Shown: piece after piece, positions 8,589-32,658 of the stretch
How the letters are laid out: each line of letters begins with the position of its first letter
Numbering within the stretch: the first letter of the stretch is position 1
Assembly: GCA_003556805.1 (NCBI GenBank)
Contig: PWQI01000010.1
Span: forward strand, 1 to 32,658
Length of the DNA stretch: 32,658 nt
Direction of reading: 5' to 3'
DNA from: Trueperaceae bacterium
GTDB lineage: Bacteria > Deinococcota > Deinococci > Deinococcales > Trueperaceae
Program-made: the position numbers and the translations under genes
Notes under the pieces: model-generated
The model's database searches: none
Told to the model about the DNA's origin: nothing
The model's input: the letters and a program-made list of their open reading frames with translations, nothing else

Positions 8589-9470
8589 TCAGGCACGCAG
8601 GGTCGGGTCGAGCACGTCGCGCAGGCCGTCCCCGAGGAGGTTGAAGCCCAACACGGCGAGGGTGATGGCGATGCCCGGCGCGAAGGCCATCCACGGGTCG
8701 AGGCGTAGGTAGAGCTGCGCCTGTGAGAGCATGCTGCCCCACTCTGCGGTGGGCGGCTGAACGCCCAGCCCCAGGAACGAGAGCCCGGCGGCCACGAGCA
8801 TGGTCACGCCGATGCGCAGGGTCGCGTAGACGATCACGGGGGCGATGACGGCAGGGAGGAGGTGCCCGAACATGATGCGCACGTGTCCTGCGCCCAAGCC
8901 GCGGGCTGCCTCGATGAACACGCGCTCCTTGGCGCCCAGCACCGAGCCGCGCACCAGCCGCGCGAAGATCGGCACGCCGAACACCGCCGACGCGACGATC
9001 ACCGGACCCACGCCCGGGCCCGTGATCGCGATCAGTCCGATGGCGAGGAGCAGGCCAGGGAACGCCAGCAACACGTCGACCAGCCGCATCGACACGGCGT
9101 CGACCCAGCTTCCAGCATAGCCAGACCACAGGCCCCATACGCCTCCGACGAGCGCGCCGAGCAGCTTCGCGGCGACGCCGATGCCGATCGAGGTCCTGGC
9201 GCCGGCGAGCACCCGCGAGAAGGTGTCGCGGCCGAACTGGTCGGTGCCGAGCCAGTGCTCGGCGCTCGGCGCCTGATTGAGCTTCAGGTAGTTCTGACGA
9301 TCGGCGTCGAAGGGTGTCAGGTAGGGCCCGACGACCGCGAGGGCGACGAACAGGAGCGACAGGAACAGCCCCAGGCTGCCGCTCGGGTGCCTCAGCAGGC
9401 GGCGGAACGCGCTGCGGCGCCGCGGCGCGACACGAGCGTCAGGTTTCGCACTGGACGCGACCTCAGCCAT
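8589..9470 (-). CDS. Peptide/nickel-type ABC transporter permease (DppC/OppC family)
   Basis: HWLGTDQFGRDTFSRVLAGARTSIGIG and EAARGLGAGHVRIMFGHLLPAVIAPVIV (EAA loop). Confidence 0.93.
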   Translation of the reverse strand: MAEVASSAKPDARVAPRRRSAFRRLLRHPSGSLGLFLSLLFVALAVVGPYLTPFDADRQNYLKLNQAPSAEHWLGTDQFGRDTFSRVLAGARTSIGIGVAAKLLGALVGGVWGLWSGYAGSWVDAVSMRLVDVLLAFPGLLLAIGLIAITGPGVGPVIVASAVFGVPIFARLVRGSVLGAKERVFIEAARGLGAGHVRIMFGHLLPAVIAPVIVYATLRIGVTMLVAAGLSFLGLGVQPPTAEWGSMLSQAQLYLRLDPWMAFAPGIAITLAVLGFNLLGDGLRDVLDPTLRA

Positions 9471-24113: not shown

Positions 24114-24236
24114 GATCGCAGGATATCACACCGTCATCATTCACCGACATCGTTCGGCACAGGCGCTCTTGGCCTCCCCTGACGCACGTGGCGGATGCCA
24201 CACGCGATTGGCGCCGTTGCATGTTTGATAATTGCG

Positions 24237-25268
24237 ATGACCTTGACACCACGTCCCGGGCACGATCCACTGGCTCGAGCCGAGCAACTCCACCGCTGGA
24301 GCGAGGAGGCGTTGCGGCGCTTCGCGGTCCTCGCAGCCAACGAGCGCGATGTGGACCGTCTCTGGTCGCTCACCGAGGCCCATCTCACGCTGCATGGCCA
24401 CGCCGGTGTCGGCACGTCGCGCCACACGCACCGTGCCTACCGGCGCGGCGTCGTCGAGCTGGTCACCCTGTGGCACGACGTCAACCTGCTTCGGCCAGCC
24501 CGTGACGCGGGCGTCATGTACGTCCAGCGCCTCCGTGCCGGCGATCGCGAACCGCTGCTCGAGGCCGCCGAGCCGGGCAAACGCGGTCGCCGACCGAAGC
24601 GCGGCCCGTTGGCCCCGGCCACGATAGAACTGCGGATCGCAGCGGCGCGCGCGCTGTACGCCGCGTTGCGGTGGTCGGGCGCCACGGAGGCCGATCCCTT
24701 CCGCGACGTTCGTACCGGCCGTGACGCGACGCGCGAGGAGGACGTGATGGCGGCCAAGGTCTACACGGAGGTCGAGATCATCGAACTGCTCGGGCACGCC
24801 CGCGACGACGACGACCGGCTCGTGCTGCTCCTCGGGGCGCACGCCGGCCTGCGCGTGAGCGAGATGCTCGCCCTGCGCTGGGAACATCTCGATCTGGAGG
24901 GGCGCCGCTTGCTGGTACAGGCCGGCAAGGGCGGCAAGGACGCCCTGGTCTCCCTCACCCCGAAGCTCGCTGCAGCCCTAGGCGAGGCGGAGCGCCGTGC
25001 GCTCGTCGACGACCGCAGGCCGAGCGTCGTGCGCCTACGCTCGCAGTACGGCGTGTACCGCCGTCTGCGCCGGCTGTGCGACCGGGCCGAGGTGCGATTC
25101 CGCGGCGTACACGCCCTGCGCCACGCAGCAGGTACCCGCCTGTACCGGCAGACCGGCGATCTCGGCCAGGTCCAGGACCACTTGCGCCACGCCACGCTCG
25201 ACATGGCACGACGCTACGCCCGCTCGGACCGGCGTGTGCTCGAGCGATCGCTCGACGACTGGACCTGA
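24237..25268 (+). CDS. Tyrosine recombinase/integrase
   Basis: Arg HAGLRVSEMLALRW, Lys AGKGGKDALVSL, HALRHAAGTRLY, DHLRHATLDMARRYAR (His and Tyr); GATAAT-4nt-ATG. Confidence 0.92.
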   Translation: MTLTPRPGHDPLARAEQLHRWSEEALRRFAVLAANERDVDRLWSLTEAHLTLHGHAGVGTSRHTHRAYRRGVVELVTLWHDVNLLRPARDAGVMYVQRLRAGDREPLLEAAEPGKRGRRPKRGPLAPATIELRIAAARALYAALRWSGATEADPFRDVRTGRDATREEDVMAAKVYTEVEIIELLGHARDDDDRLVLLLGAHAGLRVSEMLALRWEHLDLEGRRLLVQAGKGGKDALVSLTPKLAAALGEAERRALVDDRRPSVVRLRSQYGVYRRLRRLCDRAEVRFRGVHALRHAAGTRLYRQTGDLGQVQDHLRHATLDMARRYARSDRRVLERSLDDWT

Positions 25269-25345: not shown

Positions 25346-26389
25346 ATGAAGGCGGTGACGCTGCAGGACCTCGCCGATACGCTGGGCGTCGCACGCTCGA
25401 CGGTGTCGCGGGCGTTGCGCGACGACCCCCAGATCTCCCCTACCACTCGTCACCACGTGCGGCGCCTCGCGCGCGACCTCGGGTACCACCCGAACGCCGC
25501 AGCTCGGGCCCTCACGAGGCGCCATAGCGGCGTCGTCGGCGTGGCGTTGCCGCGCTCGGCCCCCTTCGTCTTCGCGAACCCGTACTTCTCGACACTCCTG
25601 GAGGGGATCGCCTCGATCGCCGAGGACGCTGGCGTGCCGATCCTCTTCAGCGCCAGTCCGACGCCCGACTACGAGCGCTGGTTGCGCGAGGGACGCGTGG
25701 ACGGCTTGATCGCGCTCGGCTACGGCGTGCGTACCCTCGACCTCGAGCAACTCGAGGGTCTCGCTGGCCGCTCGGCCGCGATCGCGCTGGTCGGGGCCCC
25801 CCCGCGCCCCACCGAGCTCCCCACGGTGATCGCCGACGAGGCGCCGGGTATCGCGACCGCCTGCGACCGACTCGCCGCCGCCGGGCACCGCGAGCTCGCG
25901 CTGGTCACTGGGCCCGAGGGCGCGGCCTACGCGAGGGCGCGCGCGAGCATGTGGCGTACGAGCGCGACGAGCGCCGGCATGACGATCGTCGCCACGGTCC
26001 ACGGCGACGACACCCAGCCTGGCGGCGCTGCTGCTGCCCGTCACCTGCTCGAGCGGGATCCCGTCCCCGATGCGTGGCTCTTCGGGAACGACGCCATGGC
26101 GTTCGGGGCGCTCGGCGCCCTCGAAGCCGCTGGCGTACGGGTCCCGTCGGACGTCGCCGTGGTCGGCTTCGACGACGTCCCACCCGCGGCGCTGCTCGGG
26201 CTCACCACCGTGCACCAACCGGTTCGCGCACTGGGGGAGCAGGCGATGCGACTCGTCGTCGCCGCTCTTCGTGGCGACACCGCTCCCGGCCACACCTTCA
26301 GCACCCACCTCGAAGAGCGCCGCACGACGCGCTCGGCCCCGAGCACGCCCGCCGTGTCGAGGCACGGCGTCACGGAGGACGTCACGTGA
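25346..26389 (+). CDS. LacI family transcriptional regulator
   Basis: VTLQDLADTLGVARSTVSRALRDDPQISPTTRHHVRRLARDLGYHPNAAARAL; AVVGFDDVPPAALLGLTTVHQPVRALGEQAM. Confidence 0.96.
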   Translation: MKAVTLQDLADTLGVARSTVSRALRDDPQISPTTRHHVRRLARDLGYHPNAAARALTRRHSGVVGVALPRSAPFVFANPYFSTLLEGIASIAEDAGVPILFSASPTPDYERWLREGRVDGLIALGYGVRTLDLEQLEGLAGRSAAIALVGAPPRPTELPTVIADEAPGIATACDRLAAAGHRELALVTGPEGAAYARARASMWRTSATSAGMTIVATVHGDDTQPGGAAAARHLLERDPVPDAWLFGNDAMAFGALGALEAAGVRVPSDVAVVGFDDVPPAALLGLTTVHQPVRALGEQAMRLVVAALRGDTAPGHTFSTHLEERRTTRSAPSTPAVSRHGVTEDVT

Positions 26390-27816
26390 TCACACCAGCA
26401 CAGCTTCGCATCGCCTTCGCCACGGTCGTCCGAGACGCCTTCAAGGGTGACGCCGAGGCGCTCGCCTCGCGCGCGCTCGCAGCGCTCGAGCAGCGCGGCG
26501 CGACGCTCGGATACGCAGTCGACGCCGCGCCCGAAGCCGTGCGCGACGTCGACGCCGCCACGCGGGTCGGGGCGTGGGTCGCCGCCGGGCGCTACGACTT
26601 CCTCCTGATCATCCACGCCACCTTCGCCACGGCCGACCTGCTGGCTCCCTTGTTGCGGTCCAGCGACGCCGTCGGTGTCTGGGCCGTTCCCGAGGCGGAG
26701 GGTCTGCCCTTGGGTCGCCCCGGCGTCCGCACCGGCATGCGGCCCCTACCGCTCAACAGCCTCTGCGGCCTCAACATGACGCTGTCCACGCTCGACCACC
26801 CAGCCGTCGCCGCGCAGGGAACGGTCAAGTGGTACTGGGGAGCCCCCGCGAGCGCCGCGTTCGAGCGCCGCTGGGAGACCACGGTGCGCGCTCTCCACGG
26901 GCTGCGAGCGCTCGGGCAGGCGCGTGTCCTACAGATCGGCGGAACCGCCCCGGCCTTCTACCGACTCGAGGAGGGTCCGAGCGCCCTCGGGGCCGTCGTC
27001 GACAGCGTGCCGCTGCAAGCGCTGTACGACCGCATGGCGGCGTGCCCCGAGGACGACGTCGAGACACGCGCTGCTGCTTGGCGTGCGAGCGAGGTCCCGG
27101 TCGGCGCGACGCCCGAGCACGTGCGCGTCGCTGCCCGAACCGAGCTCGCGCTGACCGCCCTCGCGACCGAGGGCGACTACCAGGCCCTCGCGCTGCGCTG
27201 CTGGCCCGAGTTCGCCGACGCGTGCGGCGGCATGGCGTGCGCCTCGGTCGGCGCCATGGCCGATCGCGGCGTGCCCACCGCCTGCGAGGGCGACGTGATG
27301 GGAGCCCTCTCGATGCTCGCGCTGCAAGCGGTCGCGGGAGCGCCCTCGGCGCTGGTCGACCTCTCCGACCTCGATGTCGAAGGCGACCGGCTCCTGCTGT
27401 GGCACTGCGGCAACGCGCCGATCGCCTTCGCCGGCGCGGCAGGCGCGCGGCTGACCACGCACTTCAACCGCGACGGGGTGGGCGTGGTGCGCGACATGCA
27501 CCTGCGCCCCGGAGCGGCGAGCGGCTTCAGGCTCCTCGCTGGCGGTGCCGCGGCCGTGATCGTGACCGGCTCGATCGACGAGCCCTCCGAGCCCGACGTC
27601 GACGGGGTGCGCGGCTGGTGGCGCGACCTGCGCTGGGACGGCACCCCTCGGACCGCCTTCGAGGTCGTCTCACAGGTGCTCGACGCACGCCTCCCCCACC
27701 ACCTGGCGCTCGCGCCCGGTGAGGTCGGCGAGGCCCTGCACGAGTTGACCGTCCGCTTGGGCGGGCGGGTGGTGGATCCGGCGCGTGTCCGCGACGCGCT
27801 GATCGCGGCGCCATGA
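26386..27816 (+). CDS. L-fucose/L-arabinose isomerase-fold sugar isomerase-like protein
   Basis: [52 protein letters not shown] (E, D, H metal-ligand-like positions); GTGA overlap with LacI gene. Confidence 0.8.
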   Translation: MITPAQLRIAFATVVRDAFKGDAEALASRALAALEQRGATLGYAVDAAPEAVRDVDAATRVGAWVAAGRYDFLLIIHATFATADLLAPLLRSSDAVGVWAVPEAEGLPLGRPGVRTGMRPLPLNSLCGLNMTLSTLDHPAVAAQGTVKWYWGAPASAAFERRWETTVRALHGLRALGQARVLQIGGTAPAFYRLEEGPSALGAVVDSVPLQALYDRMAACPEDDVETRAAAWRASEVPVGATPEHVRVAARTELALTALATEGDYQALALRCWPEFADACGGMACASVGAMADRGVPTACEGDVMGALSMLALQAVAGAPSALVDLSDLDVEGDRLLLWHCGNAPIAFAGAAGARLTTHFNRDGVGVVRDMHLRPGAASGFRLLAGGAAAVIVTGSIDEPSEPDVDGVRGWWRDLRWDGTPRTAFEVVSQVLDARLPHHLALAPGEVGEALHELTVRLGGRVVDPARVRDALIAAP

Positions 27817-28736
27817 CCACACCCGTCGTCGTCGCCGCCGTCGGCCTCGCCTGCCTCGACCACGTCTGGCACGTCGACCACTTCCCGCCCACGCGCTCAC
27901 GCACCCACGCCAGCAGCTACCGCAGCCACGGTGGCGGTCCCGCCGCAACGGCCGCCGTCGCCGCCACCCGCCTCGGCGCCGAGGCGCACCTCTGGGCGAG
28001 CCTGGGCGAGGACGAGGCGGCCACGACGGTCGAACGCGAACTCACCCAGGAGGGCGTACTGCTACACGCGCTGCGCGCTGCGGGCGCACGCAGCTTCGTG
28101 AGCGCCGTGCTGGTCGAGCCGTCGGGCGAGCGACACATCTTCCCCTACCGCGGCGACGCGCTCGCCGACGATCCAGAACGCCTCGACTGGTCGGCGCTCG
28201 CACGCGCGCGAGTGCTGCTCACCGACGCTCGCCATCCGCAGCTGAGCGCGCACGCGCTGCAGGCAGCCCGCCGCTACGGCATCCCCACCGTCGGCGACTG
28301 GAGCGATCTCCGCCACTGGGATCAGACGGCGTTGGTGGATCACCTGATCGTGTCCGAGGAGTGCGCACGCGCGGCGCTCGGCGACCAGGCGCTCGGCGAA
28401 GACGACCTGGCGGCGGCGCTACCGCGGCTGCGCAGCGCCGAACACCAGCTCGTGGCGGTGACCCTGGGACCGCGCGGTATCCTATGGGACGCGGGTGACG
28501 GTGTCAGGCGCACCCTCGCACCGCGCGTCGACGTGCTCGACAGCACCGGTGCGGGCGACGCCTGCCACGGCGCCTACGCGTTCGCCCTGGCAAGCGGCCG
28601 CTCCATGGCGGACGCCCTGCGACTAGCGAGCGCGGTCGGCGCGCTCGCGTGCACCGGGCCGGGACGTGACGCACTGCCCGACCTGGCGGCGGCCGAGCGG
28701 CTTGCCGCCACTTTGCCGGACGAGGAGCAGCGATGA
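27813..28736 (+). CDS. PfkB family carbohydrate kinase, YihV (sulfofructose kinase)-like
   Basis: GGGPAATAAVAATRLGA, GERHIFPY, LLTDARH, DSTGAGDACHGAYAFAL; ATGA overlap. Confidence 0.92.
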   Translation: MTTPVVVAAVGLACLDHVWHVDHFPPTRSRTHASSYRSHGGGPAATAAVAATRLGAEAHLWASLGEDEAATTVERELTQEGVLLHALRAAGARSFVSAVLVEPSGERHIFPYRGDALADDPERLDWSALARARVLLTDARHPQLSAHALQAARRYGIPTVGDWSDLRHWDQTALVDHLIVSEECARAALGDQALGEDDLAAALPRLRSAEHQLVAVTLGPRGILWDAGDGVRRTLAPRVDVLDSTGAGDACHGAYAFALASGRSMADALRLASAVGALACTGPGRDALPDLAAAERLAATLPDEEQR

Positions 28737-29830
28737 GCGACATCAGCGGCGTTCCCACCCCTCCCCCAACGACATTGCCTGCCGCGACGCTGCGAGCCCT
28801 CACGACGCTCGCAGACGACAGCGGGCGTTTCGGCATGATCGCGGTCGACCAGCGACCGCCCATCTTCGCCGCGCTCGCGCGCTACGGCAACCGTCGGCCC
28901 GAAGACGTCGGGTACGACGAGGTCGCCGCCGTGAAGGGAGCGCTCGTGGAGGTGCTCGCGCCAGATGCGAGCGCCGTGCTCCTGGATCCCGTGTGGTCGC
29001 ATCCGCACCACGTGGCGCTGGTACCCGGCAGGGTCGGGCTGCTGTCGACGCTCGAGGACCACGCCTTCACCGTCCAGGGTGGCGAGCGCCGGTCGCATGC
29101 CATCCCGGGCTGGAGCGTCGCGAAGATCAAGCGCTCGGGCGCCCAGGGCGTCAAGGTGCTGGCCTGGGACCGGCCCGACGTGTCGGCGGCTACGCGCGAC
29201 CATCAGGACGCGTTCGTCGCCGAGGTCGGTCGCGCCTGTCGTGAAGCCGAGCTGCCGTTCGTGCTCGAGCTGTTGACCTACCCTCTCGGCGACGAGGACC
29301 CCGCTGGCGACGGCTACGCCCGCTCGAAGCCGCAGCGGGTGCTCGATTCCGTCCGGCACTACGCCGACGAGCGTTTCTGCGTCGACCTGTTCAAGCTCGA
29401 GTTCCCCGCCGACCTGAAGTGGACCAGCGAGTTCGCGGCGGGTGCGTTCGACGGCCGTCGGCGCGACGCCGTGTACGACCTCGACGAGGTGCGCGCCTAC
29501 CTCGCCCAGCTCGACGCGGCGGCGAGCGTCCCGTGGGTGCTGCTCTCGGCCGGCGTCGGGCCGCACGAGTTCGCCTTCGACGTCGAGCTCGCATGTGTCG
29601 CCGGAGCCAGCGGCTTCTTGGCCGGTCGCGCCGTCTGGTACGACGCGCTCGAGGCCTACCCCGACCTGGACGCCGTGCGTGCACGGCTCCGTGGTGTCAG
29701 CCTGCCCTATTTGCGCTCGCTGCGCGCGATCGCGCAACGGGGTCGGCCCTGGACCGAGCATCGTCGCTTCGCGAGCGGCGTCAGCGTGGCTGACACGGGC
29801 CCCTCGTGGCACGAGGTGTACGGCTCGTGA
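28733..29830 (+). CDS. LacD/YihT-like class I aldolase (tagatose-bisphosphate / sulfofructose-phosphate aldolase family)
   Basis: FGMIAVDQRP, WSVAKIKRSGAQGVKVLAW, FCVDLFKLEFPADLKW (Schiff-base Lys context), PWVLLSAGVG, GASGFLAGRAVW. Confidence 0.9.
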   Translation: MSDISGVPTPPPTTLPAATLRALTTLADDSGRFGMIAVDQRPPIFAALARYGNRRPEDVGYDEVAAVKGALVEVLAPDASAVLLDPVWSHPHHVALVPGRVGLLSTLEDHAFTVQGGERRSHAIPGWSVAKIKRSGAQGVKVLAWDRPDVSAATRDHQDAFVAEVGRACREAELPFVLELLTYPLGDEDPAGDGYARSKPQRVLDSVRHYADERFCVDLFKLEFPADLKWTSEFAAGAFDGRRRDAVYDLDEVRAYLAQLDAAASVPWVLLSAGVGPHEFAFDVELACVAGASGFLAGRAVWYDALEAYPDLDAVRARLRGVSLPYLRSLRAIAQRGRPWTEHRRFASGVSVADTGPSWHEVYGS

Positions 29831-30915
29831 GCGCCGACGTCGACCAGGCCGCCGCGGCCGCCAACGGAACGACGCAGGCAGCGCGAGCAGGCGCCGACCC
29901 ACTCGGTGTGATCGTCATCGGCGCGGGCGACATGGGTGCCAGGCACGCGCGCCACTGGCACACCATCGGTGCCGCGGTGATGGCGATCGTCGACCCGAAC
30001 TCGGCGCGCGCCGAGGCCGTCGCCGCCCTGGTGGGGGCTGAAGCACACGCCGACATCGGCGATCTCCTCGACCGAGGCGACGTGCACGTCGTCTCGGTCT
30101 GCACCCCCACCTACCTGCACGCCGCCGGGACCGTGGCCGCGCTCGAGGCGGGCAAGCACGTCCTGTGCGAGAAGCCTGCCGCGCTCACCCTGCGTGACGC
30201 GGTGGCGATGCAGCGCGCCGCGGAGCGCTCGGGCAAGCAGCTGCGCATCGGCTTCATGCGCCGCTTCGACCCGGCCTACCGACCGTTGATGGACTTCACC
30301 GAGCGCGCCGGCAAGCCGTTGCTGGCGCAAGCGACCATCACCGCCGGCGTGCGACCGAAGCGGCTCATGCACGACGCGCTGGCCAACGGCGGCCCGATCA
30401 TCGACATGTGCTGCCACGTGTTCGACCTGTGGGGGCGCATGCTCGGCGGCGAACCTGTGGCGGTGCGCGCCCGTGGCTACACCTTCTCCGACGACAAGCC
30501 CGAGCTCGCTGGCATCGCCCAGCGCGCGCTCGACAGCGCGCTCATCACGCTGGAGTACGCGGGGGGCTCGGTCGGGCAGATCCAGGTGTCGTGGGGGTTG
30601 CCGTCCGGCATCGAGCCGGTCGAGCGACACACCTACGTCGGTCCCTCCGGGATGGTGAGCGTCGATTGGCCCCGGCACATCACGCTGCGCGACGCGGACG
30701 GCGTGACGCGCTGGCGCAGCCGGGGCGTCGACCCCTATCTGGCCGAGATCACACAGTTCCGACGCGAGATCGTCGAGGGTGCGCCGCGACAGGTCCCCGA
30801 CATCGGTGCCGGCATCGCCGCACTGCGGGTGTCGCTGGCCGTGCTGGAGGCCATCCGCGGCCACAGCGTGACATCGCCGGCGGAGGCCGTCGACCTGGAT
30901 GTGACGACGTCATGA
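29827..30915 (+). CDS. Gfo/Idh/MocA family oxidoreductase-like protein
   Basis: IGAGDMGARHARHW, TPTYLHAAGTVAALEAGKHVLCEKPAALT, GFMRRFDPAY, GGPIIDMCCHVFDLWG. Confidence 0.93.
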   Translation: MSADVDQAAAAANGTTQAARAGADPLGVIVIGAGDMGARHARHWHTIGAAVMAIVDPNSARAEAVAALVGAEAHADIGDLLDRGDVHVVSVCTPTYLHAAGTVAALEAGKHVLCEKPAALTLRDAVAMQRAAERSGKQLRIGFMRRFDPAYRPLMDFTERAGKPLLAQATITAGVRPKRLMHDALANGGPIIDMCCHVFDLWGRMLGGEPVAVRARGYTFSDDKPELAGIAQRALDSALITLEYAGGSVGQIQVSWGLPSGIEPVERHTYVGPSGMVSVDWPRHITLRDADGVTRWRSRGVDPYLAEITQFRREIVEGAPRQVPDIGAGIAALRVSLAVLEAIRGHSVTSPAEAVDLDVTTS

Positions 30916-32027
30916 TGCACGCTACGCACACCGTCACGGCGCCGCGCGACGCGCGCGCCGACGCAACCGAACTCGACACCAAGCGCCAGCGCGTCTTGGA
31001 CGTCGCGCGCACCGCCGGAGCGGCAGCGCTGGTGGTTCGACGCGCCGACACGCTGACGTGGTTGCTGTGCGGCGCCGACGTGTTGGTCAGCCGCCAGGGT
31101 GGCCCGGTCGCGGAGGCCGTCGTGCACGACCACGGCGTCGACGTCGTGACCACCCGGATCGAGGCCGAGCGCCTGCGCCACGAGGAGCTCCCCCACGGCG
31201 TCGACGTCGTGGCCGTCCCGTGGGAGCGCCCGAGCGCCGTCGGCGAACGCGCTGCGGAGCTGGCCATCGAACGGGCGCAGGGCGGCGCCGTCGCAAGCGA
31301 CGCCGAGCTGTCGCTCGACGATGCCCGTTGGCCGCTGTTGGACGTGGAGATCGAGCGTCTGCGAAGCGCCGGGGCCGTGACGGCGCGCGTCGTCACCGAC
31401 GTCGCCGCGACGCTCTCGCCGGAGCTGAGCGAGCACGCCGTCGCCGGCCGCCTGATGGGCGCCCTACGCGAGCGCGGGCTGCACGTTCCGGTCGTCCTCG
31501 TGGCAGGCGCGGCTCGGCTTGGTCACGTACGCCACCCCGTGCCGACGCACACGCCGATCGGCCGCGCAGCGATGCTGGTGGTGTGCAGCGAGGCCCACGG
31601 CCTCGTGAGCGCGGCCACACGCATCGTGCGCTTCGGTGACGAGCCTGGGCCGATCGCAGAGCGCCTCGGACTGGTCCTCGAGGTCGAAGCCGCGATGCTG
31701 AGCGCGACGCGCCCTGGGGCGACGCTCGGCGACGTGTTCGAAGCCGGACGGGCTGCCTACGACGCGGTCGGTCACCCCGATGCATGGCGTGACCACCATC
31801 AGGGCGGCCCGATCGCGTACCGACCGCGCGAAGGGCTGGCCGTACCGGGTGACGCCCGCGCGGTCGTCGTCGGGGCGGCGTACGCCTGGAACCCCTCGCT
31901 GCCGTGGGCCAAGAGCGAGGACACCTTCGTGCTCAGCGAGGCCAGCCTGGAGAACGTCACCTGGGACGAGCGCTGGCCGAGCCTCGTCGTCGACGGGCGG
32001 TCACGTGCAGACGTCCTGAGCCTGTGA
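30912..32027 (+). CDS. M24 (aminopeptidase P/creatinase)-fold protein with degenerate metal site
   Basis: RAAMLVVCSEAHGLVSAATRIVRFG, DHHQGGPIAYRPREGL, AWNPSLPWAKSEDTFVL. Confidence 0.8.
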   Translation: MMHATHTVTAPRDARADATELDTKRQRVLDVARTAGAAALVVRRADTLTWLLCGADVLVSRQGGPVAEAVVHDHGVDVVTTRIEAERLRHEELPHGVDVVAVPWERPSAVGERAAELAIERAQGGAVASDAELSLDDARWPLLDVEIERLRSAGAVTARVVTDVAATLSPELSEHAVAGRLMGALRERGLHVPVVLVAGAARLGHVRHPVPTHTPIGRAAMLVVCSEAHGLVSAATRIVRFGDEPGPIAERLGLVLEVEAAMLSATRPGATLGDVFEAGRAAYDAVGHPDAWRDHHQGGPIAYRPREGLAVPGDARAVVVGAAYAWNPSLPWAKSEDTFVLSEASLENVTWDERWPSLVVDGRSRADVLSL

Positions 32028-32658
32028 CACCGAGGCGCGACCCGCCACCGCTGGGCGTCGCGCTGGTCGGCGCCGGACGCTGGGCAGCCGTCCACCGCAC
32101 GGCCCTGCCACGAGCCGGCGCCCGCCTGGTCGGGGTGGCGACCGGTAGCGACGCCTCGCGCGCCCGCGTGGCGCGTGAATGGGACGTGTTCGCGACCACG
32201 GACATGGCAGCGCTCCTGGCGCGCCCTGAGGTCGAGGCCGTCGTGATCGCGAGCCCCAACGACCTGCACGCGACCCAGGCCTGTGCGGCGCTCGAGGCCG
32301 GCAAGCACGTCTTGGTCGAGAAGCCCATCGCGATCGACGTCGCCTCGGCCGAGCGCGTGGAGCGGGCCGCCGAACAGAGCGACCGCGTGCTCGCGGTCGG
32401 CCTCGAGATGCGCGTGTTCACGCTGTTCGAGCGCGTCAAGGCGCTGCTCGACGAGGGCGCGCTGGGCGCACCGGTGCACCTCGCGCTCGACCTGTTCAGG
32501 CGTCCCCACCGGGCCGGCTCGGGTGGCTGGAAGCACGACCCTGAGCGGCGCGGCTCGAGCGTGCTCGAGGAACCGATCCACTACCTCGACCTGGCGCGCT
32601 GGTACCTGGGCGAGATCACATCGCTGCGGGCCTGGGCGGTCTCGCGCCCGGGCCGCGA
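32024..32658 (+). CDS. Second Gfo/Idh/MocA family oxidoreductase (truncated by window edge)
   Basis: GVALVGAGRWAAVH, SPNDLHATQACAALEAGKHVLVEKPIAIDVASAERVERAAE, EEPIHYLDLARWYLG. Confidence 0.93.
   Translation, partial: MTPRRDPPPLGVALVGAGRWAAVHRTALPRAGARLVGVATGSDASRARVAREWDVFATTDMAALLARPEVEAVVIASPNDLHATQACAALEAGKHVLVEKPIAIDVASAERVERAAEQSDRVLAVGLEMRVFTLFERVKALLDEGALGAPVHLALDLFRRPHRAGSGGWKHDPERRGSSVLEEPIHYLDLARWYLGEITSLRAWAVSRPGR

Follow-up and report, generated by a model that had tools for sequence, protein, structure and literature searches.

Described sulfoglycolytic systems and the Trueperaceae operon

Sulfoquinovose is a sugar of plants and algae, of which billions of tonnes are made per year and which ranks among the largest pools of organic sulfur. 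Its degradation by the sulfoglycolytic Embden-Meyerhof-Parnas (sulfo-EMP) pathway, based on an isomerase, a kinase and an aldolase, is represented by YihS, YihV, YihT and YihU of Escherichia coli and by the Arthrobacter version with a sulfolactaldehyde dehydrogenase. This pathway has been placed in Proteobacteria and Actinobacteria, and the sulfo-EMP2 pathway (SqvD, SqiK and SqiA) in Firmicutes (PMC12890257). Moreover, hybrid sulfoglycolytic clusters are already known (PMC9594981, PMC13372026), and SuyAB joined to sulfo-transaldolase clusters have been reported in Thermotogae and Chloroflexi (PMC9594981). The stretch analysed here, hereafter the window, comprises 32,658 nucleotides and is the entire contig PWQI01000010.1 (C162) of a genome of the family Trueperaceae (GCA_003556805.1), at whose end seven same-direction genes form an operon led by a LacI-family regulator. 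Most probably, judging from its sequence, this operon would encode a hybrid sulfo-EMP pathway for sulfoquinovose made of a new combination of parts. The operon structure, the clade of the kinase, the folds and the linkage to sulfolactate and cysteate genes were computed directly, while every substrate and every enzyme activity in the pathway is what we infer. Since hybrid clusters were known before, the Deinococcota pathway would be a new variant.

The operon has the same isomerase-kinase-aldolase logic as sulfo-EMP, including a YihV-clade kinase and a class I aldolase. With the Arthrobacter version it would share an exit of the sulfolactate type, YihQ being found beside the cassette in neither of them, and import by ATP-binding cassette (ABC) transporters appears in relatives of the window. 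However, it differs from sulfo-EMP in having an isomerase of the arabinose/fucose isomerase fold instead of YihS, which is of the N-acylglucosamine 2-epimerase (AGE) type, in an aldolase that did not group within the YihT branch, in a further cleavage of the sulfonate, putatively by SuyAB or CuyA, and in its phylum, Deinococcota. The sulfo-EMP/EMP2 hybrid of Yersiniaceae resembles it in combining an isomerase of the FucI/AraA superfamily with a YihV-type kinase (PMC9594981), whereas sulfo-EMP2 and its hybrids (Yersiniaceae, Vibrio) use the class II aldolase SqiA in place of a class I enzyme. Compared with the described catabolism by SuyAB/SlcC/ComC and CuyA/CuyB, the gene sets are the same, here directly joined to a sulfo-EMP-type cassette. 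Thus, the parts are best read as a new mixture, in which an arabinose/fucose-fold isomerase that is neither YihS nor demonstrably SqvD, a YihV-clade kinase and a class I aldolase assignable to neither YihT nor LacD would act after an opening enzyme, either a glycoside hydrolase of family 31 (GH31) in which the canonical sulfoquinovosidase motif is missing, or a GH188-like Gfo/Idh/MocA protein.

The cassette isomerase was present in 29 of 61 relatives, where it formed a single clade (100/99) apart from the paralogues found in the same genomes and elsewhere, and the kinase and the aldolase travelled with it in a conserved gene order. Therefore, these genes did not come together by chance.

The kinase groups with sulfofructose kinase

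The kinase gene (27813..28736, + strand) encodes a PfkB protein placed in the YihV (sulfofructose kinase) clade by PDB match, tree, fold search and residue table. Its best PDB match was YihV (146 bits), followed by a match of 110 bits and by ribokinases with at most 86 bits, and YihV was also the best E. coli PfkB match for every cassette kinase listed, the E. coli PfkB kinases tested in this reciprocal comparison having been fetched by region. In the tree, the kinase nested with neither LacC nor IolC; YihV was sister to all cassette kinases (97/89), with E. coli FruK and PfkB far outside. Scores against the LacC and 1-phosphofructokinase models were poor, and the IolC model gave 68 bits for a cut-off of 300. 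Moreover, the predicted structure had a predicted local distance difference test (pLDDT) score of 93, and its top eight fold matches were all YihV crystals, including complexes with sulfofructose and sulfofructose phosphate.

Lys27, Asn109 and Arg138 of YihV are taken here to be its sulfonate-binding residues. In the window kinase, Arg30, Arg113 and Arg140 align with YihV Lys27, Pro111 and Arg138, respectively. Across 41 cassette kinases, Arg138 was kept and Lys27 replaced by Arg in all of them, Asn109 was mostly Pro (as in the window) and an additional Arg appeared at position 111 in 40. The substitution of Lys27 by Arg, the conservation of Arg138 and the Pro at Asn109 had been correctly read in the initial annotation. 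Furthermore, two YihV-like kinases of Chloroflexi located beside a different isomerase clade, used as a control, had lost Arg138, so its retention in the cassettes does not follow from mere resemblance to YihV. By sequence and tree, the window kinase qualifies as a member of the YihV clade, and phosphorylation of sulfofructose at O1 is predicted for it; it is the only protein of the cassette that qualifies by membership for a known family of sulfoglycolytic enzymes.

Linkage of the cassette to sulfolactate and cysteate genes

For SlcC, ComC, SuyAB, CuyB and CuyA the roles have been described, as has the output of (S)-sulfolactate by sulfoglycolysis (PMC11382572). Elsewhere in the order, in families other than Trueperaceae, orthologous cassettes belong to operons with genes for SuyA, SuyB, SlcC, ComC, a solute-binding protein, two permeases, the isomerase, the kinase and the aldolase, together with a divergent GntR gene, and the genomes concerned look, by inference, like Thermaceae such as Meiothermus. 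SuyB appeared in 26 of 112 genomes, all 26 carrying the cassette isomerase as well, and in 24 of them the two genes shared a strand and a span of 7.2-7.9 kb, whereas the other two had them on different contigs. The chance of such nesting was 1.2e-13 by genome counts, a value that is too small because the genomes are related, and 0.0024 with genera counted once. The isomerase clade (100/99) unites the window copy with these SuyAB-linked copies.

A search of NCBIfam returned no SuyB model, and SuyB was 58% identical to the copy of Cupriavidus pinatubonensis located beside hpsN and hpsO; on this similarity, the SuyAB proteins are taken as homologous to copies in sulfonate operons. The best NCBIfam model of the ComC-like protein was L-sulfolactate dehydrogenase (200 bits, cut-off 500). 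The full set was present in G109, with SuyAB, SlcC, ComC, ABC genes, isomerase, kinase, aldolase, GH31 and aldehyde dehydrogenase, so that every step of the proposed pathway is represented. A plasmid of Deinococcus peraridilitoris harboured a transporter, the isomerase, the kinase, the aldolase, GH31, an aldehyde dehydrogenase and an M24-like gene. As a separate observation, the SuyB gene of G101 has two stop codons (L134:13927-15082), the remaining operon looking intact.

Within Trueperaceae, an SlcC-like gene in opposite orientation followed the cassette in almost every locus whose sequence extended far enough. Both G017 and G022 had CuyB and CuyA after it, while in G020 and G011 these two genes were located 6-8 kb from the gene of Gfo/Idh/MocA protein B. 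The cassette-adjacent CuyA (534 and 519 bits, cut-off 450) and CuyB (268 bits, cut-off 190) were above the NCBIfam equivalog cut-offs. In the genome of the window, CuyA (70%) is paired with a CuyB-like gene (46%) on another contig, C65 (L174:9766-11494).

Isomerase and aldolase

The isomerase gene (26386..27816, + strand, GTG start at 26386) would encode the enzyme converting sulfoquinovose into sulfofructose. It had no Pfam match, and its sole NCBIfam match was the SqvD/SftI sulfoquinovose isomerase model (NF048012), with 105 bits for a cut-off of 700. This match is not discriminating, as non-cassette paralogues scored 92-150 bits with the same model and the other cassette isomerases 60-139 bits. 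The AlphaFold2 model (pLDDT 91.6) matched L-arabinose isomerases (AraA) with a template modelling (TM) score of about 0.8 and L-fucose isomerases (FucI) with about 0.7; the modelled fold is accordingly that of L-arabinose/L-fucose isomerases, in agreement with the earlier proposal of a FucI-like enzyme rather than an AGE-type YihS. Residues E301, D325, H359 and H438/H439 were invariant and are putative metal ligands.

Other isomerases were also observed. A second, diverged copy in the genome of the window (contig C124, L069:3-1481) belongs to a non-cassette clade and lies beside a gene of no assigned role. A plasmid of the phototroph Candidatus Chlorohelix allophototropha (L089:2281-18130) carries an SqvD-like isomerase (343 bits), a pyrophosphate-type phosphofructokinase, an aldehyde dehydrogenase, a sulfite reductase, siroheme genes, ABC genes and a homologue of Gfo/Idh/MocA protein A, and is possibly a sulfo-EMP2-like cluster with use of sulfite. 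In plasmids of the marine Roseobacter group (L087:4687-10305 and L088:3206-10224), a LacD-type aldolase and DhaK/DhaL kinase genes accompany a related isomerase (28-29%), and another sugar pathway may be encoded there.

The aldolase gene (28733..29830, + strand) encodes a class I enzyme of the DeoC/LacD superfamily, which is the proposed sulfofructose-1-phosphate aldolase and was assigned to the PRK12858 group ('tagatose 1,6-diphosphate aldolase') by a score of 291 bits (cut-off 184). Its PDB matches were 8tnf (233 bits), LacD (126 bits) and YihT (69 bits). The cassette aldolases and 8tnf formed a clade of their own, separate from LacD, and YihT fell on their side, away from LacD (100/98), although its placement is unsure given its branch of 3.8 changes per site. 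A LacD identity was unsupported, as the score against the LacD equivalog was 131 bits (cut-off 432) and the aldolase was not nested within the LacD clade; neither was it placed with YihT, an identity likewise unsupported in view of the 69 bits and the very long YihT branch. The initial annotation had called the aldolase YihT-like, and the motifs PWVLLSAGV and GASGFLAGRAVW on which it relied are present; however, the whole family shares them, and they are not specific to YihT. Their overlap is thus weak evidence, considering the PRK12858 group, the 8tnf clade and the long branch of YihT.

Proteins that may release the sugar

Gfo/Idh/MocA dehydrogenase A (29827..30915, + strand; Pfam GFO_IDH_MocA) is of the IolG type, with a DxxxH motif. 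The strict pattern IIDMCCHxFD was found in 7 of 12 copies checked and was missed by the others, and the IolG model gave 139 bits (cut-off 355). A 37%-identical homologue is the one in the Chlorohelix cluster. Protein A is an ordinary IolG-type dehydrogenase whose role may be the oxidation of a glycoside or sugar, and a GH188 identity was rejected because it carries the dehydrogenase DxxxH motif.

Gfo/Idh/MocA protein B is represented in the window by its N-terminal part (32024..32658, + strand), which is cut by the contig end and continues on contig C398 (L166:1-387). The catalytic and sulfonate-binding residues of the GH188 enzyme ArSqgA are Lys107, Tyr136, Arg166, Lys172, Glu189, His193 and His321 (PMC10755693). 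Of the six of these in the aligned part, Lys107, Arg166, Glu189 and His193 were retained in 10 of 10 copies of protein B, with a probable match for His321. Protein B shares the Gfo/Idh/MocA fold with GH188 SqgA and occurs in cassettes that have no linked GH31, while differing at Tyr136 and Lys172. Its score against ArSqgA (8qc3, about 67 bits) was similar to those of unrelated Gfo enzymes. From these residues, it is a candidate NAD-dependent sulfoquinovosidase-like enzyme, not a GH188 member. Hence, of the earlier suggestion that two Gfo/Idh/MocA proteins pointed to GH188, the presence of both genes held, and the membership did not for either A or B.

Between them, the M24 (creatinase/aminopeptidase P)-like protein (30912..32027, + strand; Pfam Peptidase_M24) has two metal-binding Asp residues replaced by Cys and Ala in an alignment to PepE, and a relative 33-36% identical to the Trueperaceae copies adjoins the D. 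peraridilitoris cassette (L086:3412-4473).

G037, G101, G109 and D. peraridilitoris carry a GH31 gene linked to the cassette, and in G074 it is located on another contig, while the Trueperaceae cassettes, including that of the window's genome, had no such GH31. The linked enzyme resembles the alpha-xylosidase YicI (482 bits, cut-off 606). Taking Gln288, Arg301, Trp304 and Tyr508 as the sulfoquinovosidase motif of YihQ, it has Arg at 288, a gap at 301 and 304, and Phe at 508. The inserted Arg aligned to Gln288 was present in all five copies and absent from YicI and a paralogue, and a GRAW...TRC pattern was found in 5 of 5 cassette GH31 proteins. Tentatively, Deinococcota might have two undescribed ways of releasing sulfoquinovose, namely a GH31 lineage with GRAW...TRC as an anion-binding motif of its own in some Thermaceae kin and Deinococcus, and the non-GH188 protein B, possibly with protein A, in Trueperaceae, where the metal-less M24-like protein would carry out a further step.

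Organization of the operon and its continuation

The LacI-family transcriptional regulator is the first gene of the operon (25346..26389, + strand; Pfam LacI and Peripla_BP_3), and its stop overlaps the isomerase start (GTGA). The LacI-led, consecutive isomerase, kinase and aldolase genes of the initial annotation were confirmed at these positions and are conserved in Trueperaceae, where LacI also precedes other cassettes and several relatives have ABC sugar transporter genes separating the regulator from the isomerase. Of the six junctions of the seven genes, five are four-base overlaps of a stop with the next start (GTGA or ATGA), so these genes are probably co-translated. The closest named relatives were Trueperaceae metagenome-assembled genomes, whose CSSed isolate names suggest an origin in soda-lake sediments.

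As the window is a whole contig, C162 itself holds nothing beyond position 32658. The sequence is continued by C398, since alignment to a relative of 97% identity (L023) places the end of the window at base 8826 and the first base of C398 at 8846, giving a gap of about 20 bases. On C398, the last part of protein B is followed by an inserted gene and then, on the opposite strand, by the SlcC-like 2-hydroxyacid dehydrogenase gene, so that a gene of this kind follows the cassette here too. The insert (L166:665-2983) looks like a secreted nuclease lipoprotein and is absent from L023. At the other end, a Xer-like tyrosine recombinase gene (24195-25268) directly precedes LacI. Orthologues with 73-97% identity adjoin the cassette in further members of the genus and in a second genus of Trueperaceae, as though the recombinase belonged to this neighbourhood.

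Proposed pathway and alternative explanations

In the proposed pathway, a sulfoquinovose glycoside would be opened by protein B through NAD-dependent, GH188-like chemistry, perhaps with protein A, or by GH31 replacing protein B in some Thermaceae kin and Deinococcus. The arabinose/fucose-fold isomerase, presumably metal-dependent, would then convert sulfoquinovose into sulfofructose, and the YihV-clade kinase, with its conserved arginines holding the sulfonate, would produce sulfofructose-1-phosphate. Cleavage by the class I aldolase would give dihydroxyacetone phosphate, which would enter glycolysis, and sulfolactaldehyde, to be oxidized to (S)-sulfolactate by a GabD-type aldehyde dehydrogenase encoded elsewhere. 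Subsequently, the SlcC-like dehydrogenase next to the operon (C398) would form sulfopyruvate, whose transamination followed by the action of CuyB and CuyA (C65) would yield pyruvate, ammonia and sulfite. In Thermaceae, the breakdown of sulfolactate would be taken over by SlcC, ComC and SuyAB. The variant sulfosugar route put forward in the initial annotation is thus supported by the kinase tree and fold search, by the SuyAB-SlcC-ComC operons and by SlcC, CuyB and CuyA near Trueperaceae cassettes.

Several results weigh against a sulfoquinovose pathway. As the SuyAB linkage comes from different families within the order, the substrate may have changed, and SuyB was mostly absent from Trueperaceae, with no match in the genome of the window. 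That genome also holds no close homologue of the cassette solute-binding protein (best, 36% paralogues). Both CuyA and the CuyA/CuyB-like pair occur across Trueperaceae without the cassette too; cysteate breakdown is probably a trait of the family, and CuyA is therefore supporting, not specific, evidence. Similarly, the candidate aldehyde dehydrogenase occurs in almost the entire family; it is therefore not cassette-specific and does not discriminate, and a sulfolactaldehyde dehydrogenase assignment resting on homology was rejected. An SqvD identity of the isomerase was rejected on its score and those of the paralogues, as was a YihQ-type identity of the linked GH31, in which the YihQ motif is missing. 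In protein B, ArSqgA Tyr136 is replaced by Met and Lys172 by Gly in 10 of 10 copies. Finally, the aldolase is nearer to LacD than to YihT by score, and a literature search gave no function for its closest relative, PDB 8tnf.

Among the alternatives, another hexose with a charged C6 group (e.g. a uronate) or another sulfonated sugar, processed with the same isomerase-kinase-aldolase logic, is unlikely. The isomerase is not demonstrably SqvD, and the YicI-like GH31 may bind a carboxylate, given its conserved Arg at YihQ Gln288 and the missing Arg301/Trp304 motif. However, SuyAB, SlcC, ComC, CuyA and CuyB act on C3 sulfonates, a uronate, which would lead to tartronate semialdehyde, would require none of these genes, and the clade of the kinase is that of sulfofructose kinase. 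Less probable still would be a non-sulfonated sugar (tagatose, fructose or a deoxysugar), with a LacD-type annotation and sulfonate genes as neighbours by coincidence. Such coincidence is difficult to reconcile with the 26 of 26 SuyB genomes carrying the cassette, 24 of them in an operon-like arrangement, even though the aldolase exceeds the PRK12858 cut-off and YihV-like kinases stand beside other isomerases in Chloroflexi; those kinases are without the Arg138 that all cassette kinases keep, and the poor LacC and 1-phosphofructokinase scores and the distant E. coli FruK and PfkB also argue against it.

A pathway for inositol or another cyclitol, the alternative raised in the initial annotation, is disfavoured and has a very slight probability. 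It would account for two IolG-like dehydrogenases, an IolC-like kinase and an IolJ-like aldolase, and protein A does give 139 bits with IolG, while an IolE-like protein occurs in the operon of one relative. Nevertheless, the IolG (139 of 355 bits) and IolC (68 of 300 bits) scores are below the cut-offs, and the kinase has 68 bits with IolC compared to 146 with YihV. IolJ is of the class II aldolase type, unlike the DeoC/LacD-class aldolase of the cassette, and no inositol genes were seen beside the Thermaceae cassettes.

Implications

A literature search excluding subscription journals gave no report of sulfoquinovose breakdown in Deinococcota. If the sulfoquinovose pathway proposed here is correct, one more phylum, with soda-lake and thermophilic members, would break this sugar down to sulfite by means of newly combined parts. 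Surveys of the sulfur cycle would then gain new marker genes among those that currently bear the annotations L-fucose isomerase, tagatose aldolase and alpha-xylosidase, and the operon would provide candidates for unassigned glycoside-opening enzymes.

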